Source of the DNA: Naegleria lovaniensis
Taxonomy: Eukaryota > Heterolobosea > Eutetramitea > Acrasida > Naegleriidae
NCBI RefSeq assembly: GCF_003324165.1
Contig: NW_025407851.1
Span: forward strand, 186,001-250,000
Length of the DNA: 64,000 nucleotides
Direction: 5' to 3'
Below the pieces are notes generated by a model. The model did not search any database and was not told where the DNA came from. It saw only the letters and a list, made by a program, of their open reading frames with translations. Position 1 is the stretch's first letter. Every line of letters starts with the position of its first letter. A program made the translations under genes and the position numbers. Of the stretch, positions 835 through 8,822 are shown piece by piece.

Positions 835-3637
835 TTACATGATGAGACACTTGTTACTCCTATCGTTCGAAGCGCTCGTAGAAGTACTAGTGCTTGTGGC
901 AGTTGATGTTGTCGTCTTACATTGAGAATGATAATCATTAATCTCATCGAGTAAGAGTTTTCGAAGTTCCTTCTTTTCAAATTCTGAAAATTGTTCTTCA
1001 TGCAATGATTTCATAAAATCTTGTCTGTCATATCTGCCTTTTCTTTGGAGGTGATAATACAATGGAGGATAGGGTTGAGATGGTCGAATCAAGGAAACAG
1101 AATCGTCCTTGTCATAGGTTGTGACACATAATTTAAAATCAGGGAGAATGAGTTCTTTCTTGCTTGGTGTTGGTCTCTGAGATTGAACATCAATTTTCAC
1201 ATCTTTACGTTTGGAAGGAGAAGAATTGTGTTGGTCCTTGCTATTAACTTTCATAAAGGAAATCAATTCATTTCTACCTTCACCAATGACACATTCAGGA
1301 AATTGAGTTTGCATGTCATCTGTAAAGTAAATGAGTCTCATTTGATTTTCCTTAAATGGATAATTGATGTCTTCTTCATCGTCAGCAGCGCTGGTAGTAA
1401 TATTACTTTGAGCCTTAGATTGTAATTCCTTAAGTTCATCATCGAGAATGAAGGCACACAATTCATCGTCCACACTTTCGACTGAGAATGAACTGTGATG
1501 GTTCTCAGAAAGTTTTGTTTCAATCTCTCTAATCTTTTTCAATTTGTTGAATAAAGCTCTTCTCTTATCCTTCTTGTGCCAGTTGTGACAAAAGTGAATT
1601 TTCAAAACATTCTTTTCAGAGTAACTATAATCAACAAGCATACCAACCACATCTCCAGAGTAGTATCGTTGGTTATTAATTTCAAAACAGTGGTGACAAC
1701 TTCCAGATGGCCAAATATAATTATCAAAATGAGTTGGATTGAAATCTTTTGGTACCGGATTGGATCCTTCAGGAGCAGTAAAGTGAATATTTGGAACTAA
1801 ACCAACACCCAAATTAATACCACCAATCTTTTCAACATAAAATTCAAAATAATACAAATTATTAGGTGAAAATGTTCTTGAACTGGTTGCATTTCTCCAT
1901 CGATAGTCATTAGGTGACTTTTTGTTATCAGTTTCAATACTTCTCTGAATGCAAGTATTATACATGCAACTCTTTCTAGTCAATTCACTGATAGCAGACA
2001 TTTCAAGCTCACTTGGATCTTCAACAGAGGATGGTTTTGTCACCATTTGGAATATTGGTAACATGTATCGAGAATCTTGATCAAATCTTGCAGGAATGCA
2101 ATGCAAATAGTGATAACTGTATTGCCACAATGCAAGCTCTTGATGATAACAAGTATTGTTGGTGCTAATGAAAAGAGAAGCATTAGCTCCAGACGTTTGA
2201 ACAGCTCCCGTTGAAACCACTTGCCATTCAGTTCCAAGAGCATCTGGAATGTTCAATTCTGAAGAGTTGGAAATATTTAACATGGTTTGAAGCCAATCAC
2301 CTAGTTTGACAATTTTTGACATGGTAGTTGGAGAATCTTCTCTCTCAAATGGCTCCTTTCCATAAATACTAATCAATGTCTTTCTATCAACCGGTGGCTC
2401 TGAATTCTCTGTTTTTGGTAAATTGAAATAGAATTCACAAATTAATTGCCAAAAGTGTACATTCTTGAACAAGGAATAATACAAGTGACTATTCACAAAG
2501 CACAATGAGAAGATTCCATACTTGTTGTCAAAGACAGATTGTTGTTGAATCGAAGCAACATCCACACCTGGATCCATGGCCATCGGAAGGGTAATTCGTG
2601 ATTGCTGCCGAACATCCACCAATGCTTGCGTCGACCATGACATTGATTGGCGATGATGTTGTGGTGGTGGAATGATCCTTCTGTGGTTGTTGTTGCTGTT
2701 GCTGTTGTTGGGACAATGATTGACTGGATTCAATCAAGTTCCGAACGAATCGTTGTCTCCATTGGACACCCGAAGAAGAAGAAAACTTTTTCGATTCAGC
2801 ATGAAGCTTTCTCATACATCTCTCTCGAGAACTCCAATACTTTTCATATTCATGAGTAAGATCATCTTGATGAGGAAGGAATGTGAGAATGTGGAAGAGC
2901 ATTTCAAATGGCAAGTCACCTAACGTGTGGTGTGATGATGCGTTGACAAGTGGCACTGGACCATGGCATGAAGTAACATCAACAGCATCAATAGGAATTT
3001 CATCGTCTGCTGCGTCATAATGATGATGATGGTGCGAACGGAATGTTTGCTGTTGAGCTAAATATTCTTGATCAGCTGATTCCATGATGACATGATTGTA
3101 ATAACTACTCATCATGAGTCCCATATTCTCGTCGTGAGGATTTATGGTATTATTAGAGACGTGAGGAGAATGATCGTTCGTTGATGATAATGATATACTT
3201 GGTTGTTTCGGTTTTGCAACGTTGAACAAACCATGCGGTGTGTTATTACTACTACGAATCGATGATGATATCTCTTCTGCAAAGGTTTGACAAACGGAAC
3301 AACAATTCAATGACGTTGTTGTGTTGTTGGTTGAGATGTTGTTTTCTTTTGGTGATTCTTTGAGTTCTGCAAGTGGGTCAAAAGAGGATTCTCTTTCAAT
3401 ACTGCTCCTGTCACGTTCTTGATGGTTCGAAGAGAGAGAATGAGCCTCATTTGTAAAAATTTGGCTGTTTTGTGTCATGAGATTTGTTGTTGTAAAGTTG
3501 GGTTCTGATGATGACTCTTGTTGAACATTGACATGAGTACCAATGGTTGTGGCTGTCGAGAGGACATCGATGAGTTGTTGTTGTTGTTGAATGGAGGCAC
3601 TCACGACAAGAGTGTTCATAGAAGTGGTTGTTGTCAT
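835..3637 (-). CDS. F-box / SPRY-like protein with C-terminal CaaX box, interrupted by a frameshift
   Basis: The coding sequence starts at the ATG at 3637 (MTTTTSMNTLV) and ends at 835, but lies in two frames: 3637 to about 2680 and about 2700 to 835. The N-terminal 250 residues are Ser/Asn/His-rich. The F-box begins with LPFEMLFHILTFLPHQDDL near 2900-2860, and the second frame carries typical post-F-box residues (SLCFVNSHLYYSL) at about 2500, followed by an SPRY-like region at about 1900-1560 (YYFEFYVEKIGGINLGVGL ... YYSGDVVGMLVDY). The break falls in a CAA/CAG and CCA repeat at about 2660-2712; removing one base would give roughly 930 residues. The protein ends KCLIM, a CaaX prenylation box. 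F-box proteins normally select substrates for SCF ubiquitin ligases. A transposon lies 12 bp upstream of the ATG. It could be a real gene with a sequencing indel or a young pseudogene; a non-consensus intron is less likely. Confidence 0.72.
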
Positions 3638-3651
3638 TGTCGTTGATGATA

Positions 3652-3685
3652 TTGTGATTTTCGAAAAAGTGCGAATAAAAAATCG
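3652..3685 (+). repeat. Left terminal inverted repeat of the Tc1/mariner-like element
   Basis: It starts TTGTGATTTTCGAAAAAGTG just after the TA at 3650-3651 and matches the reverse complement of 6496-6528 except for G/C at position 12 and one extra base in the A-run. It runs into a perfect palindrome at 3677-3695 (nine-base arms AAAAAATCG/CGATTTTTT around one A). Confidence 0.9.
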
Positions 3686-3806
3686 ACGATTTTTTCGCGA
3701 TTTTTTTCGAGATCGAAATGAGCGACATTGATGCGTTGTCGTTTTGACTTGATGTTGTTTAACATCGAAATCCTTCAAAATCGATTTCAATCAAACTCGA
3801 AATTTA

Positions 3807-4877
3807 TTAAGTTTTTGTCTCATCATGCCAGATTTCCTTGCAATGATGAACAAACGATTTGATTAACTTGGGTGTAACTTGATCAAACACCTGCTCCATT
3901 ATCTCTTCGAGAGAGTCAACCGAATGTTCATAGTTTTTCAACTGTGTTTTCATCCATCCGAAAAGCAATTCAATGGGATTGAAGTCAGGAGAGTATGGGC
4001 TTTGCCAAAACACACTAATACCTTGGCCATTCATTATACTATGAACTTCTTTTTCCTTATGAATGGATGCGTTGTCAAGAACTAAAATACAATCTTTTGG
4101 GATCAATTTGCTCAATGTTGTCAGAAATATATTAAATCGATCAGCATCAATTGCTTTGTTAGTTGTATCGACAAGTTCCCAGTAAACCAAACCTCCTCTC
4201 TCGTTAATGCATGCCAATAATGAAAAACGTTTTCCACTCACTCTGTGCGCACTGTTTTGACAAGTGTTGCCAATTTTGATGTGAGCCCTTGTTCTAATCA
4301 AATGGTCATAACAGAAATGCGATTCGTCAATAAAAAACATGATTCTTGTTTTGTAGGTTCGAATAGTTCGCCTGTACACAGTTCTTTGAGATTGTACTCT
4401 TGGGCTTTTTCGATATACTGATACTTTTTCACATTTCTTATATGTCCTGAACAAATATTTTGTCGTTATTTTGGAGAGCTGAGATACGGAAATTGAAACA
4501 TCAAGATAATCTTTAACTATTTGACGTACTTCTGCATAATTAACAGTATTATATTCACTGAATATGATATCAATAAATCTTAACACAGAGAGGTGGGTTG
4601 ATTTACCTGAATGTGGAGGCCTTCCGAGAGCTTTTTCTTTTTGTATTTCATTGCAATATTTGTAAATCGTCGAAGGTGCGAAAGGTAAAATTTGTTGCAA
4701 GACCTTTGGTTTATCTCCATACTTTCCACACACCAATTTAATGAACTCAATTTGTTCTGGGGCTAATTTTTGACCTTGGATATATGGTCTTAGTTTTTGA
4801 GATATTTGGACACATGTCTTTTGTTTGAAAACTCGTCTTTCATCGTTTGAGAATCGATGTTGAGTTGCTTTTACCAT
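3807..4877 (-). CDS. Tc1/mariner-IS630 family transposase (DD34E)
   Basis: A 356-residue protein if begun at the first in-frame ATG (4877, MVKATQHRFSND). It is predicted to cut and rejoin the element's ends. The N-terminal half is a basic, helix-turn-helix-like DNA-binding region ending with QRTVYRRTI. The C-terminal half is a DDE_3-type RNase H-fold catalytic domain: first Asp in MFFIDESHF, second in CILVLDNASIHKE, and Glu in SPYSPDFNPIELLFGWMK. There are 34 residues between the second Asp and the Glu, the Tc1-like DD34E spacing. The frame is intact with no internal stop. It is transcribed away from the companion ORF at 5095-6219, the two sharing a central promoter region. The family is clear; activity is inferred. 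Confidence 0.9.
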   Translation of the reverse strand: MVKATQHRFSNDERRVFKQKTCVQISQKLRPYIQGQKLAPEQIEFIKLVCGKYGDKPKVLQQILPFAPSTIYKYCNEIQKEKALGRPPHSGKSTHLSVLRFIDIIFSEYNTVNYAEVRQIVKDYLDVSISVSQLSKITTKYLFRTYKKCEKVSVYRKSPRVQSQRTVYRRTIRTYKTRIMFFIDESHFCYDHLIRTRAHIKIGNTCQNSAHRVSGKRFSLLACINERGGLVYWELVDTTNKAIDADRFNIFLTTLSKLIPKDCILVLDNASIHKEKEVHSIMNGQGISVFWQSPYSPDFNPIELLFGWMKTQLKNYEHSVDSLEEIMEQVFDQVTPKLIKSFVHHCKEIWHDETKT

Positions 4878-5094
4878 GTGGAAATCGATTTTTTCGAGCA
4901 AAAATTGATAAGAAATTGTTGAGAAAATCAATTCTGCTCGATTATGTTGAATTGTTTAATGTTCTCATATCGAAAATGTTGAATTGAACGACGTTGATTT
5001 GTTTCGGAATAAAAAAAACTCAACGGCGTCTTGTTTTTTGTGCGATTGTGTCAACGTCAAAAAACAATAACAACGGTTTTCTCACTGAAAAAAA

Positions 5095-6219
5095 ATGGGC
5101 AAAGACAAAACAAAGTGGAACACGTTTGATCGTTTTTGCGAAATACTCGCAACCACATTACCTATTTGTTCAAATGAGCTCTATTCTCATGGAATGACAA
5201 ATTCAAAAGCAGCAAGCAAAGTTTTCAAGAAGCTCCAATTAGAAACAAAAAAAAATACAAATTTCACATTTCCTACTGCTAAAGGTTCAAGAAAATACAA
5301 AGATGGTTTACCAGCAACATGCAACGCCCCAAAAGATGACAAACGTGTGAAAGATTTTTTTGATACTTTCATTCAAGAAAACAAGAAATGGATTGTTAAC
5401 GAGATTGAAAAAGAGATTTCTGCTCACTCCAACAAAAAACAATCATTGGCTTCACAAATTCAAGGTGACAGTAGTGACAGCGAATCAGAACATTCAGATC
5501 GGGATGATGAGAAAGATGATTTGGATTGGATTGATGATAATGGCAACGATTTGCAGGAAGTTATGTATAAAGAAGCGCAAGATAAATTGAGAGACAATGC
5601 GAAAAAGCGTACAAGAAAAGGTGATACAGACAAAAGCGTCTCTCCTGTATTCAAAAAAGCTCTTGCTTCTATTCAAGAAAAATCATTGGTCATTAAGAAA
5701 GAATTGGACGAGTCAAAGACCAAGGAAACACCTTCAATGGCTCCTGAGCTTGATATATGTGGCATGGATTTGCATGATATGTTTGATCTTGATCCAAAAC
5801 CTGAGTCAACACCACAAGTTACTACGTTCAAATCACCTGTTTTAGAATTCCAGATTTTCAAATTGGATCAGTTAAAGAAGCAAATTTTTATTAACGCTAA
5901 ACAAGACTGTGATACTAATGATAAGGATATGCAAAATTCGACAAAGTTTTTAAAAACTATGAAAGACATGGAAGAAAATAATTCAAAAGTTATTGCAGAT
6001 CAATTATTGAAAATTCAGAAAGAAAAGGAGGAGTTACTTGAGAGATTTAAAAAACAAGAAGAAGATATTGCAAAACAAGAGGAACAGTATGTAAAACCTT
6101 TGACCAAATTGGTGAATGAAGTTGCAAAATTGATTGAGGTAAAGAAAGAGAAGATTAGGCAAAAAGAGGAAGAGGAGAAAAATCAAATAGAAGCAAATTA
6201 TCAGAGTTTATTTGATTAA
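5095..6219 (+). CDS. Second ORF of the transposon, uncharacterised coiled-coil protein
   Basis: A 374-residue protein starting at an ATG (MGKDKTKWNTFDRFCEI) 217 bp from the transposase start, on the opposite strand and wholly inside the terminal repeats. The first 110 residues look globular, with conserved-looking aromatic and basic positions (KWNTFDRFC, FPTAKGSRKYKDG). Residues about 135-170 are very acidic (SDSESEHSDRDDEKDD), and the last 110 residues are a Lys/Glu/Gln-rich coiled coil. I do not recognise a family. Most Tc1/mariner elements encode only a transposase; a second divergent ORF is more typical of Harbinger-like elements, where it acts as a DNA-binding or nuclear-import partner. 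A helper role is an analogy only. A captured host gene is the alternative. Confidence 0.65.
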   Translation: MGKDKTKWNTFDRFCEILATTLPICSNELYSHGMTNSKAASKVFKKLQLETKKNTNFTFPTAKGSRKYKDGLPATCNAPKDDKRVKDFFDTFIQENKKWIVNEIEKEISAHSNKKQSLASQIQGDSSDSESEHSDRDDEKDDLDWIDDNGNDLQEVMYKEAQDKLRDNAKKRTRKGDTDKSVSPVFKKALASIQEKSLVIKKELDESKTKETPSMAPELDICGMDLHDMFDLDPKPESTPQVTTFKSPVLEFQIFKLDQLKKQIFINAKQDCDTNDKDMQNSTKFLKTMKDMEENNSKVIADQLLKIQKEKEELLERFKKQEEDIAKQEEQYVKPLTKLVNEVAKLIEVKKEKIRQKEEEEKNQIEANYQSLFD

Positions 6220-6260
6220 AGGTTCTTCATGATCGATTTTTTCAACTCTGACGATCAAGA

Positions 6261-6381
6261 AAATCGATTCAGGTCGATCATAATTGATTTTTTCGATTTT
6301 GGACGAAAATCATCGACGTTGAGAAATGAATCGTGTTGAGGAAATCGATTCAGGTCGATCATAATCGATTTTTTCGACTTT
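6261..6381. repeat. Subterminal 40-bp direct repeat pair in the transposon
   Basis: Positions 6261-6300 and 6342-6381 are the same 40-bp unit with two T/C differences, 81 bp apart; each begins AAATCGATTCAGGTCGATCA. A partial related motif lies at about 6231. Such repeats near an element's end commonly serve as transposase-binding sites, but that is inferred. Confidence 0.7.
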
Positions 6382-6495
6382 GCACGAATAGCATCAACAT
6401 CGAATCTCGTCAACATCAAGCAAAATCGTTTTCGGGAAGAAACGTCCAAAAAATGAGGGTTGACCGAATTTGAGCAAGTCGTTTTCGATTTTACT

Positions 6496-6528
6496 CGATT
6501 TTTTTTCGCACTTTTTGGAAAATCACAA
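6496..6528 (-). repeat. Right terminal inverted repeat of the Tc1/mariner-like element
   Basis: Read on the minus strand it begins TTGTGATTTTCCAAAAAGTG and pairs with 3652-3685. It is followed on the plus strand by TA at 6529-6530, the second copy of the target dinucleotide. Confidence 0.9.
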
Positions 6529-6530
6529 TA

Positions 6531-7376
6531 ATGGAGTCACAAGGATGGTGTCAACGTTCATGATGATGGTTTTCGAAAAATTGTCGCAATTCGTATTTAA
6601 AATCAGAATGAGAGAGAATTAGAGAGCAATTAGGATTTTGTTTTGAAAAGAGTGTGATGAGTATATTTCAATCAATTCTAAACACCAAATGGACTAAATA
6701 TGGTGATTGTAGAGACGGTGTAAATTTTGGTTGTAAAATTTACAGAGATGATGACACAATGAGTACTCGCGTCGAAAGGTGTTTGTGATGGATGGCCAAT
6801 TGGATTCGAGTCAGTCCTAACTCAATGTGTGCTATTTTGTTTGTTGTGTATTTCAATGCTCATTGATGTTAGAAATGGAAGAATGATGGATGTTGGTCAA
6901 TGTGACACTAACGAGAGAGAATGTCATTACCTTGAACACTTGTTGGGTTCGTTTTGGATGAAAAAAGGTAACAGATGACAATCGTGTGATCCAAATGCCA
7001 TACTGTTTATGAATTGGATAAAAAAGGAAGTTTCGTAGCTCATGGAAATTTGATGATGTACACGTGAATTTGTTCAGGATGGTATTGGGATGACACACTG
7101 AAATTTAATTCACTTGTTTCAGAGTATCAATGCGGATATTAAGGCCGAAATGCCAGATGAAATACCAACTGCTCATCGCCAAAAGTATCAATGTTTTTGT
7201 AACAATGATGAATAACTTTCTGCATATGAACAACAACTCTCGTCCCTCGGTTTTAAAATTTTCAATTTTGGCGGTGCGCAAAAATATCCTCAACCCGAGG
7301 AGAAGCACATTTTACAGGCAGCAGATGAGATTTTTCATCTCTTGCAAAGGATTCCTCATAAAACACAACAACAAAA
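6531..7376 (+). pseudogene. Unresolved region with interrupted plus-strand coding-like segments
   Basis: This 846-bp stretch separates the transposon from the Zn2Cys6 gene. It holds several short open plus-strand segments that look protein-like but do not join cleanly: 6657-6788 from an ATG (MSIFQSILNTKWTKY...), about 6796-6975 (contains CDTNERECHYLEHLLG), 7123-7215 after a possible TTTCAG acceptor (IKAEMPDEIPTAHRQKYQ), and 7216-7380, in the same frame as the previous one after a TAA. I tried GT-AG combinations and found no splice solution without stops. It may be a decayed gene, an exon set I mis-spliced, or chance. The left end would also have been the native upstream region of the F-box gene before the transposon inserted. 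Confidence 0.22.
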
Positions 7377-8822
7377 ATGAATCCATTCATGCTCCTTGAC
7401 TTTCACTTTCCTGATGATTTGTTTTTTGAATCAAATCAAATTGTAAACTTTGACGATTGTAACAATGACAATGAATTAACCATGAATGTTGAATGGATGT
7501 CCAATTCACAGGCTGTAGAGAAAAAGGAGGGAGAAACCACATCATCATCATCAAACGTTGAAAATGATTTTTCACCAATTTCTTGTGATTCTTGTCGTTC
7601 TCAACATCGAAAATGTGATCGAAAAAAACCAACATGTCATGCATGTCAATTAAGAGGAACACCCTGTAATTATACGACCACAACCAATTGTAAAAGAAAG
7701 CCCAAAGCAACACAGAATAATACTTGTCTGAAAGAGGAAGATGTTGCAATTTTGGATTTATATTTTGTGGAACCTTGTTATCAAATGGTTTCAAGACAAG
7801 AATTGGAACAATTTTTGTTGAGCTCTAACAAACAGTCATCATCGCCGAATTCAGACACTCGAACATTCTCTAACAATGAAATGAAAGAATTGGCTGCTCT
7901 CTATTATTCGATCAAGGCAACATGTGAATGTCAAATGGGACAAGTTGAGAAATCTGAACAATCTGCCAAACAAGCGAAGGAACATCTTTCTCAAGTGTTT
8001 GACAGTTACTCAAGTTTGAGAGTGGCTTGTTCCTATCTCAACTTGTGCTTGTATGAATTGTGGTTTGAGCGATTGGACACATCCAAGTTTTATTTTCACA
8101 TTTTACTCTTTTTCAAAGAGGGACTGAAAAACGATCCATCCCAAGATGAAAAACACAAAGCTATTTTCATGACCGCAATTTATTACTTGGAACATACTAT
8201 ATTCAACACTCAAGACAAAAAGAATCTTCACGAAATGACCTTTGAACGATTTCTAATTGCAATACCAGCAGTATTTACATATTTCAAAACTGACCAACTC
8301 TCTGAATCCAATCATGATTGGGAGTATTATCTCAAAAATCCACACTTGATCGATTCCACAAATTGCATGGAAGTCAATGCTCTTGTTCAAACCCTTTTTA
8401 ATGAAGCAAAAAGGTATGAACAAGTTGTCTTTGGTAATTCTTCTCTTGTGGATTTGTATTATGAATTTGCAGAGAATGGATGTCGAATTGCCTTATTATC
8501 AAAATGCTCCAATAGAACTCCAATGATTGAATACACGATCGAATCGAGTGCACAATCCATTGTCAATGCCATTCGTAACCCCAAATTCAACATGCTTCCG
8601 TTTGATATGCTTCTCCATATTTCATTTGCTGCAGAATATCATTTCCAAAAGGTCATTAAGGCAGAAGTGAAAAGAAATATCACCAATGATTTGGAAATGT
8701 TAAAGACAGAATTGAAGGCGTATCATCTCTTACAGTCCAGATACAAAATTGCCAAGTTCTACTTTTATGGAGGAGTGTTCAAAAAAATTGAAGACCATCT
8801 CAATACCTTACAACAGTGTTAA
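7377..8822 (+). CDS. Zn(II)2Cys6 binuclear-cluster transcription factor
   Basis: A single-exon 481-residue protein. Residues about 66-93 form a canonical C6 zinc cluster: CDSCRSQHRKC, six residues, CHAC, six residues, C (spacing 2-6-6-2-6), with the usual basic residues after the second and third cysteines. In fungi this domain binds CGG-type DNA sites as a monomer or dimer. The remaining 390 residues are helical with conserved aromatic positions, resembling the regulatory middle region of such factors, although I cannot assign a defined fungal-TF domain. It lies just upstream of the ABC transporter on the same strand, which would fit local regulation but does not show it. Zn2Cys6 proteins are largely fungal, with some in amoebae. 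Confidence 0.85.
   Translation: MNPFMLLDFHFPDDLFFESNQIVNFDDCNNDNELTMNVEWMSNSQAVEKKEGETTSSSSNVENDFSPISCDSCRSQHRKCDRKKPTCHACQLRGTPCNYTTTTNCKRKPKATQNNTCLKEEDVAILDLYFVEPCYQMVSRQELEQFLLSSNKQSSSPNSDTRTFSNNEMKELAALYYSIKATCECQMGQVEKSEQSAKQAKEHLSQVFDSYSSLRVACSYLNLCLYELWFERLDTSKFYFHILLFFKEGLKNDPSQDEKHKAIFMTAIYYLEHTIFNTQDKKNLHEMTFERFLIAIPAVFTYFKTDQLSESNHDWEYYLKNPHLIDSTNCMEVNALVQTLFNEAKRYEQVVFGNSSLVDLYYEFAENGCRIALLSKCSNRTPMIEYTIESSAQSIVNAIRNPKFNMLPFDMLLHISFAAEYHFQKVIKAEVKRNITNDLEMLKTELKAYHLLQSRYKIAKFYFYGGVFKKIEDHLNTLQQC

Follow-up and report, generated by a model that had tools for sequence, protein, structure and literature searches.

A two-gene Tc1/mariner transposon of Naegleria lovaniensis and its probable insertion in codon 11 of an F-box-like gene

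Where does a host gene begin when a transposon lies directly upstream of its annotated start codon, and what is left of that gene? The question is raised by a locus of the heterolobosean amoeba Naegleria lovaniensis, which we analysed within a window of 64,000 nucleotides (contig NW_025407851.1, positions 186,001 to 250,000, forward strand). The proteins of the transposase, of the second ORF and of the host gene described below correspond to C9374_* database entries of this species. The initial annotation placed an intact-looking Tc1/mariner-type element 12 bp upstream of the start codon of an F-box gene and held that the gene had thereby been severed from its native promoter.

Anatomy of the element

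The element extends from TA to TA over 3650–6530 (2,881 bp) and has the same ends as its sister copies. The left terminal inverted repeat (3650–3686, plus strand) and the right terminal inverted repeat (6495–6530, minus strand) are identical in 35 of 37 alignment columns, with one mismatch and one gap. The outermost TA of each repeat is the target-site duplication, and joining the flanks leaves a single TA, in agreement with the exact duplication described initially. An uninterrupted transposase frame occupies 3807–4877 on the minus strand (356 aa). The inverted ends, the TA on both sides and this open frame bear out the description of an intact-looking Tc1/mariner-type element with an uninterrupted transposase. 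By its anatomy, with terminal inverted repeats and insertion at a duplicated TA, and by its transposase, the element is a member of the IS630/Tc1/mariner superfamily, a kind already known.

The transposase matches Pfam DDE_3 (5.3e-27) and the NCBIfam IS630 family transposase (2.8e-35; 122.2 bits against a curated cut-off of 100). The catalytic residues D184, D268 and E303 are invariant in an alignment of three relatives, and the 34 residues between D268 and E303 give the DD34E spacing. Foldseek returns Mos1 as the best match (1.0e-12) to the predicted fold (mean pLDDT 71.1, pTM 0.54). Full-length superpositions are poor (rmsd about 19), and the catalytic domains of Mos1 and Sleeping Beauty superpose on the prediction with target TM-scores of 0.68–0.74. 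The element thus shares the DDE_3 domain, the DD34E spacing, the inverted ends, the TA duplication and the catalytic fold with known members, whereas its transposase is only 15–19% identical to Mos1 and Sleeping Beauty in the Foldseek alignments. Helices are predicted for residues 40–140, where an N-terminal helix-turn-helix was sought, at a low block pLDDT of 44–80, and the Pfam search of the transposase returned no HTH match. A GRPP motif resembles the GRPR-like motif of the superfamily. The nearest transposases outside N. lovaniensis in public sequence data are P0002 (54%) and P0003 (44–45%), on contigs of 1,402 and 2,499 bases, and weaker IS630-like proteins are also present there. A viral origin was rejected: no close relative was found in IMG/VR, where one search confirmed none of 5 candidates and a second yielded 17 weakly related proteins among 133 candidates (24–44% identity in the best segment). 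A close bacterial relative was likewise rejected, none being confirmed among 211 pattern matches.

The element differs from the superfamily in carrying a second intact ORF at 5095–6219 on the plus strand (374 aa). This ORF lies head-to-head with the transposase, has no assigned function and was absent from the initial annotation. Its Pfam search returned no match, and of the 2,468 candidates in the search for relatives three were retained (E ≤ 0.1), all from N. lovaniensis itself. The single-sequence model of the product has low confidence (mean pLDDT 60.7, pTM 0.24); in this same model residues 277–373 form a helix with a block pLDDT of 78–95, and the C-terminal part is predicted to be long and helical or coiled-coil. 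Identity with RacA was rejected at 24 bits against a cut-off of 262, with the match confined to the coiled coil. Elsewhere in the genome, an ELP1 alpha-solenoid segment (PF23925, 3.5e-14) is fused, in the predicted protein C9374_009415 (P0014, C39:413638–414729), to roughly the final 184 residues of the second ORF; because the two parts are separate open frames in the DNA, this fusion may be a gene-model artefact.

The two divergent ORFs are separated by a 217-bp spacer (4878–5094), which from its position is presumably a two-way promoter. A subterminal 60-bp direct repeat is found at 6258–6317 and 6339–6398 on the plus strand (element positions 2609–2668 and 2690–2749, aligned at 88%). Extra ORFs are known in ciliate members of the superfamily; Anchois and Tennessee of Paramecium also combine short inverted ends with an IS630/Tc1 transposase and hypothetical ORFs, and for Anchois, as here, no tyrosine recombinase is reported in the available text (PMC3464196). 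Anchois differs in its length of 3.6 kb, in having two hypothetical ORFs beside the transposase, in its ends of about 22 nt and in that its copies are among the sequences removed in nuclear development (PMC3464196); the likeness of the two elements described here is one of layout.

Copies and insertion sites in the assembly

The initial annotation proposed a search of the genome with the terminal repeats. The 30.7-Mb assembly contains 37 occurrences (18 + 19) of a 24-place end pattern when up to 3 mismatches are allowed, and other copies share the same ends. These occurrences are not due to chance because the same pattern read backwards occurs only once (1 + 0). A full-length transposase match is found at 11 places, 10 of them without stops, and the repeat-search counts are lower bounds. 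Both ORFs are open in seven of the eight near-full copies; in the remaining copy (C21:492189), the start codon of the transposase is altered, its frame contains a stop, and the second ORF stops after 54 codons. In three more copies the central part of the second ORF is missing. Another two have an incomplete transposase, and of these C10 has a damaged second ORF as well; the family also includes several shorter pieces.

No difference separates the copies at C3, C8 and C21:220366 across 2,897 bp; a fourth copy, at C22, departs from this trio in its two target-site duplications and nowhere else. Between the window copy and its nearest sister (C43:267623) there are 11 substitutions, and five changes are private to the window copy among the eight near-full copies. 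The three copies with a deletion in the second ORF are also mutually identical, with no differences over 2,420 bp, and lie at different sites, which indicates that such copies were mobile although their own second ORF was not intact. Each of them (C20:611787–614206, C48:192125–194544 and C8:476414–478833) has a left-type terminal repeat at both ends and an uninterrupted transposase frame. Since identical copies at different sites imply recent movement, the family, judged by its sequences, is young and appears recently active. A literature search that had most subscription journals outside its range returned no description of this family in Naegleria, and the available text of PMC6125883, PMC9928731 and PMC12482156 does not describe it. 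The repeat table of the N. lovaniensis genome paper, in its available part, names CMC-EnSpm and PiggyBac and has no Tc1/mariner row (PMC6125883).

Of the sites that vary in the transposase among the eight near-full copies, 9 are synonymous (out of 218) and 5 non-synonymous (out of 850; Fisher P 0.0004), and two of the latter five are the lesions of copy C21:492189. The corresponding figures for the second ORF are 2 and 5 (206 and 916 sites; P 0.62). All these counts ignore the kinship of the copies. Selection is thus visible on the transposase only, which is probably under purifying selection.

TA is found at both ends in 13 of the 15 copies with both ends located, a tally that leaves out a rearranged short copy at C43 (266212–267620); at C32 one end is cut short. 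The near-identical copy at C22:313682–316578 has GA on both sides in place of TA, which points to rare non-TA insertion. No strong target consensus beyond TA is visible in 13 flank pairs; in one of these pairs, that of the short C43 copy, the right flank is element sequence. For the insertion sites, the flanks were joined and the longest frame across each site was taken. Eleven sites are clean, with both outer ends in host DNA (C32, which is truncated, the C8 copy that lies within another copy, and pieces with one end are not counted). Ten of these lie in open frames of at least 200 codons, compared with 72.5% of 3,133 TA sites in the element-free window (P of 10 or more 0.15), so coding sequence is not avoided. 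With two compound sites added (C43 and C57, several pieces being taken as one), the count is 10 of 13 (P 0.50).

Within their frames, 6 of the 10 sites fall in the range from −15 to +40 codons relative to the first Met, where 7.9% of the window's in-frame TAs are found; a same-frame TA null gives an expectation of 1.1 (P 1.4e-4) for this range, which was picked post hoc with the distances already known. Omission of one site upstream of its Met leaves 5 of 9 against an expected 0.8 (P 3.8e-4). Other ranges hold 4/10 (null 3.6%), 4/10 (4.9%), 6/10 (12.7%) and 8/10 (22.4%), and a rank test gives P 7e-5 with flanks of 1,050 bases. With flanks of 1,300 bases, the C48 distance changes from 100 to 366 codons and the last range (null 22.4%) would hold 7/10. 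The window null represents one locus, and the start codon is backed by an orthologue only for the window copy, the other sites being measured from the first Met of the frame. Taken over the family, these sequence data suggest that insertions are biased to gene 5´ ends; the element would enter genes freely, with a preference for their beginnings. An orientation bias relative to the interrupted gene was rejected: of eight ORF-located copies that include transposase sequence, a set without C31 and the outer C8 derivative, five have the same orientation and three the opposite.

Some copies are nested or rearranged. At C31:234573–237165, a 718-codon ORF (MULE 27.5 bits, cut-off 27.6; FLYWCH 23.8 bits, cut-off 23.6) sits between ends of the family. 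Imperfect inverted ends of its own delimit this inner block, with T8 on both borders. We therefore interpret it as a different transposon lying within a short derivative, and the capture of a gene as cargo was rejected. Family elements also lie inside or abut their own kind at C8:476304–479020, C57:97090–100183 and C43:266212–270502. The outer copy at C57 shows its left 216 bp only, with no right part within about 1.2 kb past the inner copy, and at C43 the rearranged short copy has a degenerate right part and is directly followed by a full copy.

The start and the likely fate of the host gene

The first open frame of the remaining host gene runs on the minus strand at 2528–3637, and the database protein C9374_007404 (P0015) has the same start. 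The distance of 12 bp from this ATG (3637) to the insertion, as given initially, is correct. When the flanks are joined at one TA, the host frame is open upstream to another in-frame ATG, MNVDTILVTPLSSTTM-TTTTSMNTLVVSASIQQQQQ. This ATG lies at 6559–6561, within the severed 5´ piece of the coding sequence (6531–6561, minus strand), and the joined frame begins MNVDTILVTPL. The N. fowleri orthologue FDP41_001633 (P0016, 974 aa) begins MNVDTLHTSTTTTDIDANALVVSIQQQ, of which the first five residues are MNVDT; it is the one orthologue found among the 7,986 candidates with the most shared words, a selection that may miss others. Because the joined frame reaches an upstream ATG and the orthologue starts with MNVDT, the insertion is placed in codon 11 and ATG 3637 is Met16, and the site is not upstream of the start codon as first described. 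We conclude that a recent IS630/Tc1/mariner transposon very probably integrated by cut-and-paste at a TA in codon 11 of an F-box-like gene with its native start at 6559–6561. In N. fowleri, the predicted protein shows no interruption at the corresponding position, which goes part of the way towards answering one refuting condition of the initial annotation, that the same element be fixed at this site in distant species.

From the native ATG onward into the element, the frame reads MNVDTILVTPLL and then meets a stop in the terminal repeat after 12 residues; the promoter, the native start and 15 residues are thus severed from the gene. The initial view that the gene had lost a native promoter now lying beyond 6530 stands for the upstream sequence and is incomplete in that the native start and 15 residues have been lost as well. 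The native promoter is presumed to lie within 6562–7376, the sequence from the native start codon to the next long ORF. The product of that ORF (7377–8822) is a Zn2-Cys6 cluster protein of the fungal type (Pfam Zn_clus 1.3e-06), here present in a heterolobosean amoeba. The region 6531–7376 is single copy in the assembly, where neither a second, uninterrupted copy of it nor an uninterrupted allele of the host gene was found. The insertion could be heterozygous, given that the assembly is described as haploid in the available text of the genome paper (PMC6125883). The F-box label is plausible and weak: the Pfam F-box-like match has E = 0.021 and 15.0 bits against a cut-off of 24.3, one database source names the host protein 'F-box domain-containing...', and Pfam returned no match on P0016 and no F-box match on P0015. 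The gene is called F-box-like here because the Pfam cut-off is not reached.

The second open frame of the remaining gene (835–2643, minus strand) shows an identity of about 90% with the N. fowleri orthologue and has no stops. It overlaps the first frame out of phase, with the frame change within 2528–2643. In bridging the two frames, P0015 loses residues that the window frame encodes and that are conserved in P0016, so this bridging looks wrong. The frame change may be a real lesion reflecting decay or a long-read assembly error. With the insertion in codon 11, translation from the old start under the native promoter would now give no more than a 12-residue peptide. Expression of the remainder of the host gene, without its first 15 residues, would require transcription initiated inside the element or read-through from the transposase gene, located 169 bp upstream on the same strand.

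This arrangement on one strand is consistent with the element serving as a putative new promoter, from which the gene would be expressed, with little loss, as a protein starting at Met16; such an outcome is compatible with the insertion in codon 11 and quite possible, if short of probable. The N-terminal stretch is poorly conserved between N. lovaniensis and N. fowleri, and the second frame of the gene is still open over 602 codons, which also fit this outcome. Tc1/mariner promoters can be promiscuous and work across distant hosts, according to the available text of PMC6446368, and by this analogy transcription from the element end is possible though not thereby shown. An out-of-frame ATG at 3728 argues to the contrary, as it opens a 93-codon ORF that overlaps Met16 and would impede initiation on transcripts whose start lies further upstream.

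It is rather unlikely that the insertion, equally compatible with codon 11, knocked the gene out and that the frame change at 2528–2643 is a later lesion of a decaying gene. The change of frame between two sides that both resemble P0016 supports such decay, whereas the downstream frame, uninterrupted and close to its N. fowleri counterpart, opposes it. Single-base errors are common in PacBio reads. The assembly was polished from such reads, as stated in the available text of the genome paper (PMC6125883), which also counts against a lesion. A broader proposal seems to us very doubtful, namely that this two-gene mariner family targets gene 5´ ends, perhaps via the second protein, and that its own promoter takes over the decapitated genes, which would result in shortened but expressed host proteins and not in plain knock-outs.

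The position of the start codon itself can be read otherwise. In the initial version, the insertion falls within the 5´ leader, translation genuinely begins at Met16, and the gene has been parted from its promoter alone. The N. lovaniensis gene model, which begins at Met16 (P0015), speaks for this version and against the insertion in codon 11, and since the gene models used RNA-seq hints, according to the available text of PMC6125883, Met16 might serve as a working start. The start in N. fowleri, which supplies the sole orthologue found, is a predicted one. In opposition to a leader insertion, the empty-site frame is open upstream to MNVDT, which matches the first five residues of P0016, and a five-residue match at the only upstream in-frame ATG of the open frame is improbable by chance. 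We therefore consider that the leader version has only a slim chance of being correct and retain the insertion in codon 11. Precise removal of the element that restores the gene in some cells or nuclei, like the internal eliminated sequences of ciliates, is scarcely credible, since the long open frames at 10 of the 11 clean joined sites favour it but a restored frame is simply the pre-insertion state, and Naegleria is not known to have nuclear dimorphism. The available text of PMC3464196, in its favour, lists ciliate Tc1/mariner elements among eliminated sequences. Splicing-out of the element was rejected, with no suitable AG beside the left end as judged by eye.

Implications

The insertion in codon 11 would be a clear natural case of a transposon that removes the start codon of a host gene. 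The element belongs to a young two-gene mariner family, probably still mobile, in a heterolobosean amoeba, and because some sister copies are identical, its activity and its need for the second gene are directly testable. The second ORF and the possible 5´-end bias are the parts worth following; the bias, if true, would bear on how a mariner-type transposase selects its targets in a very gene-dense genome.
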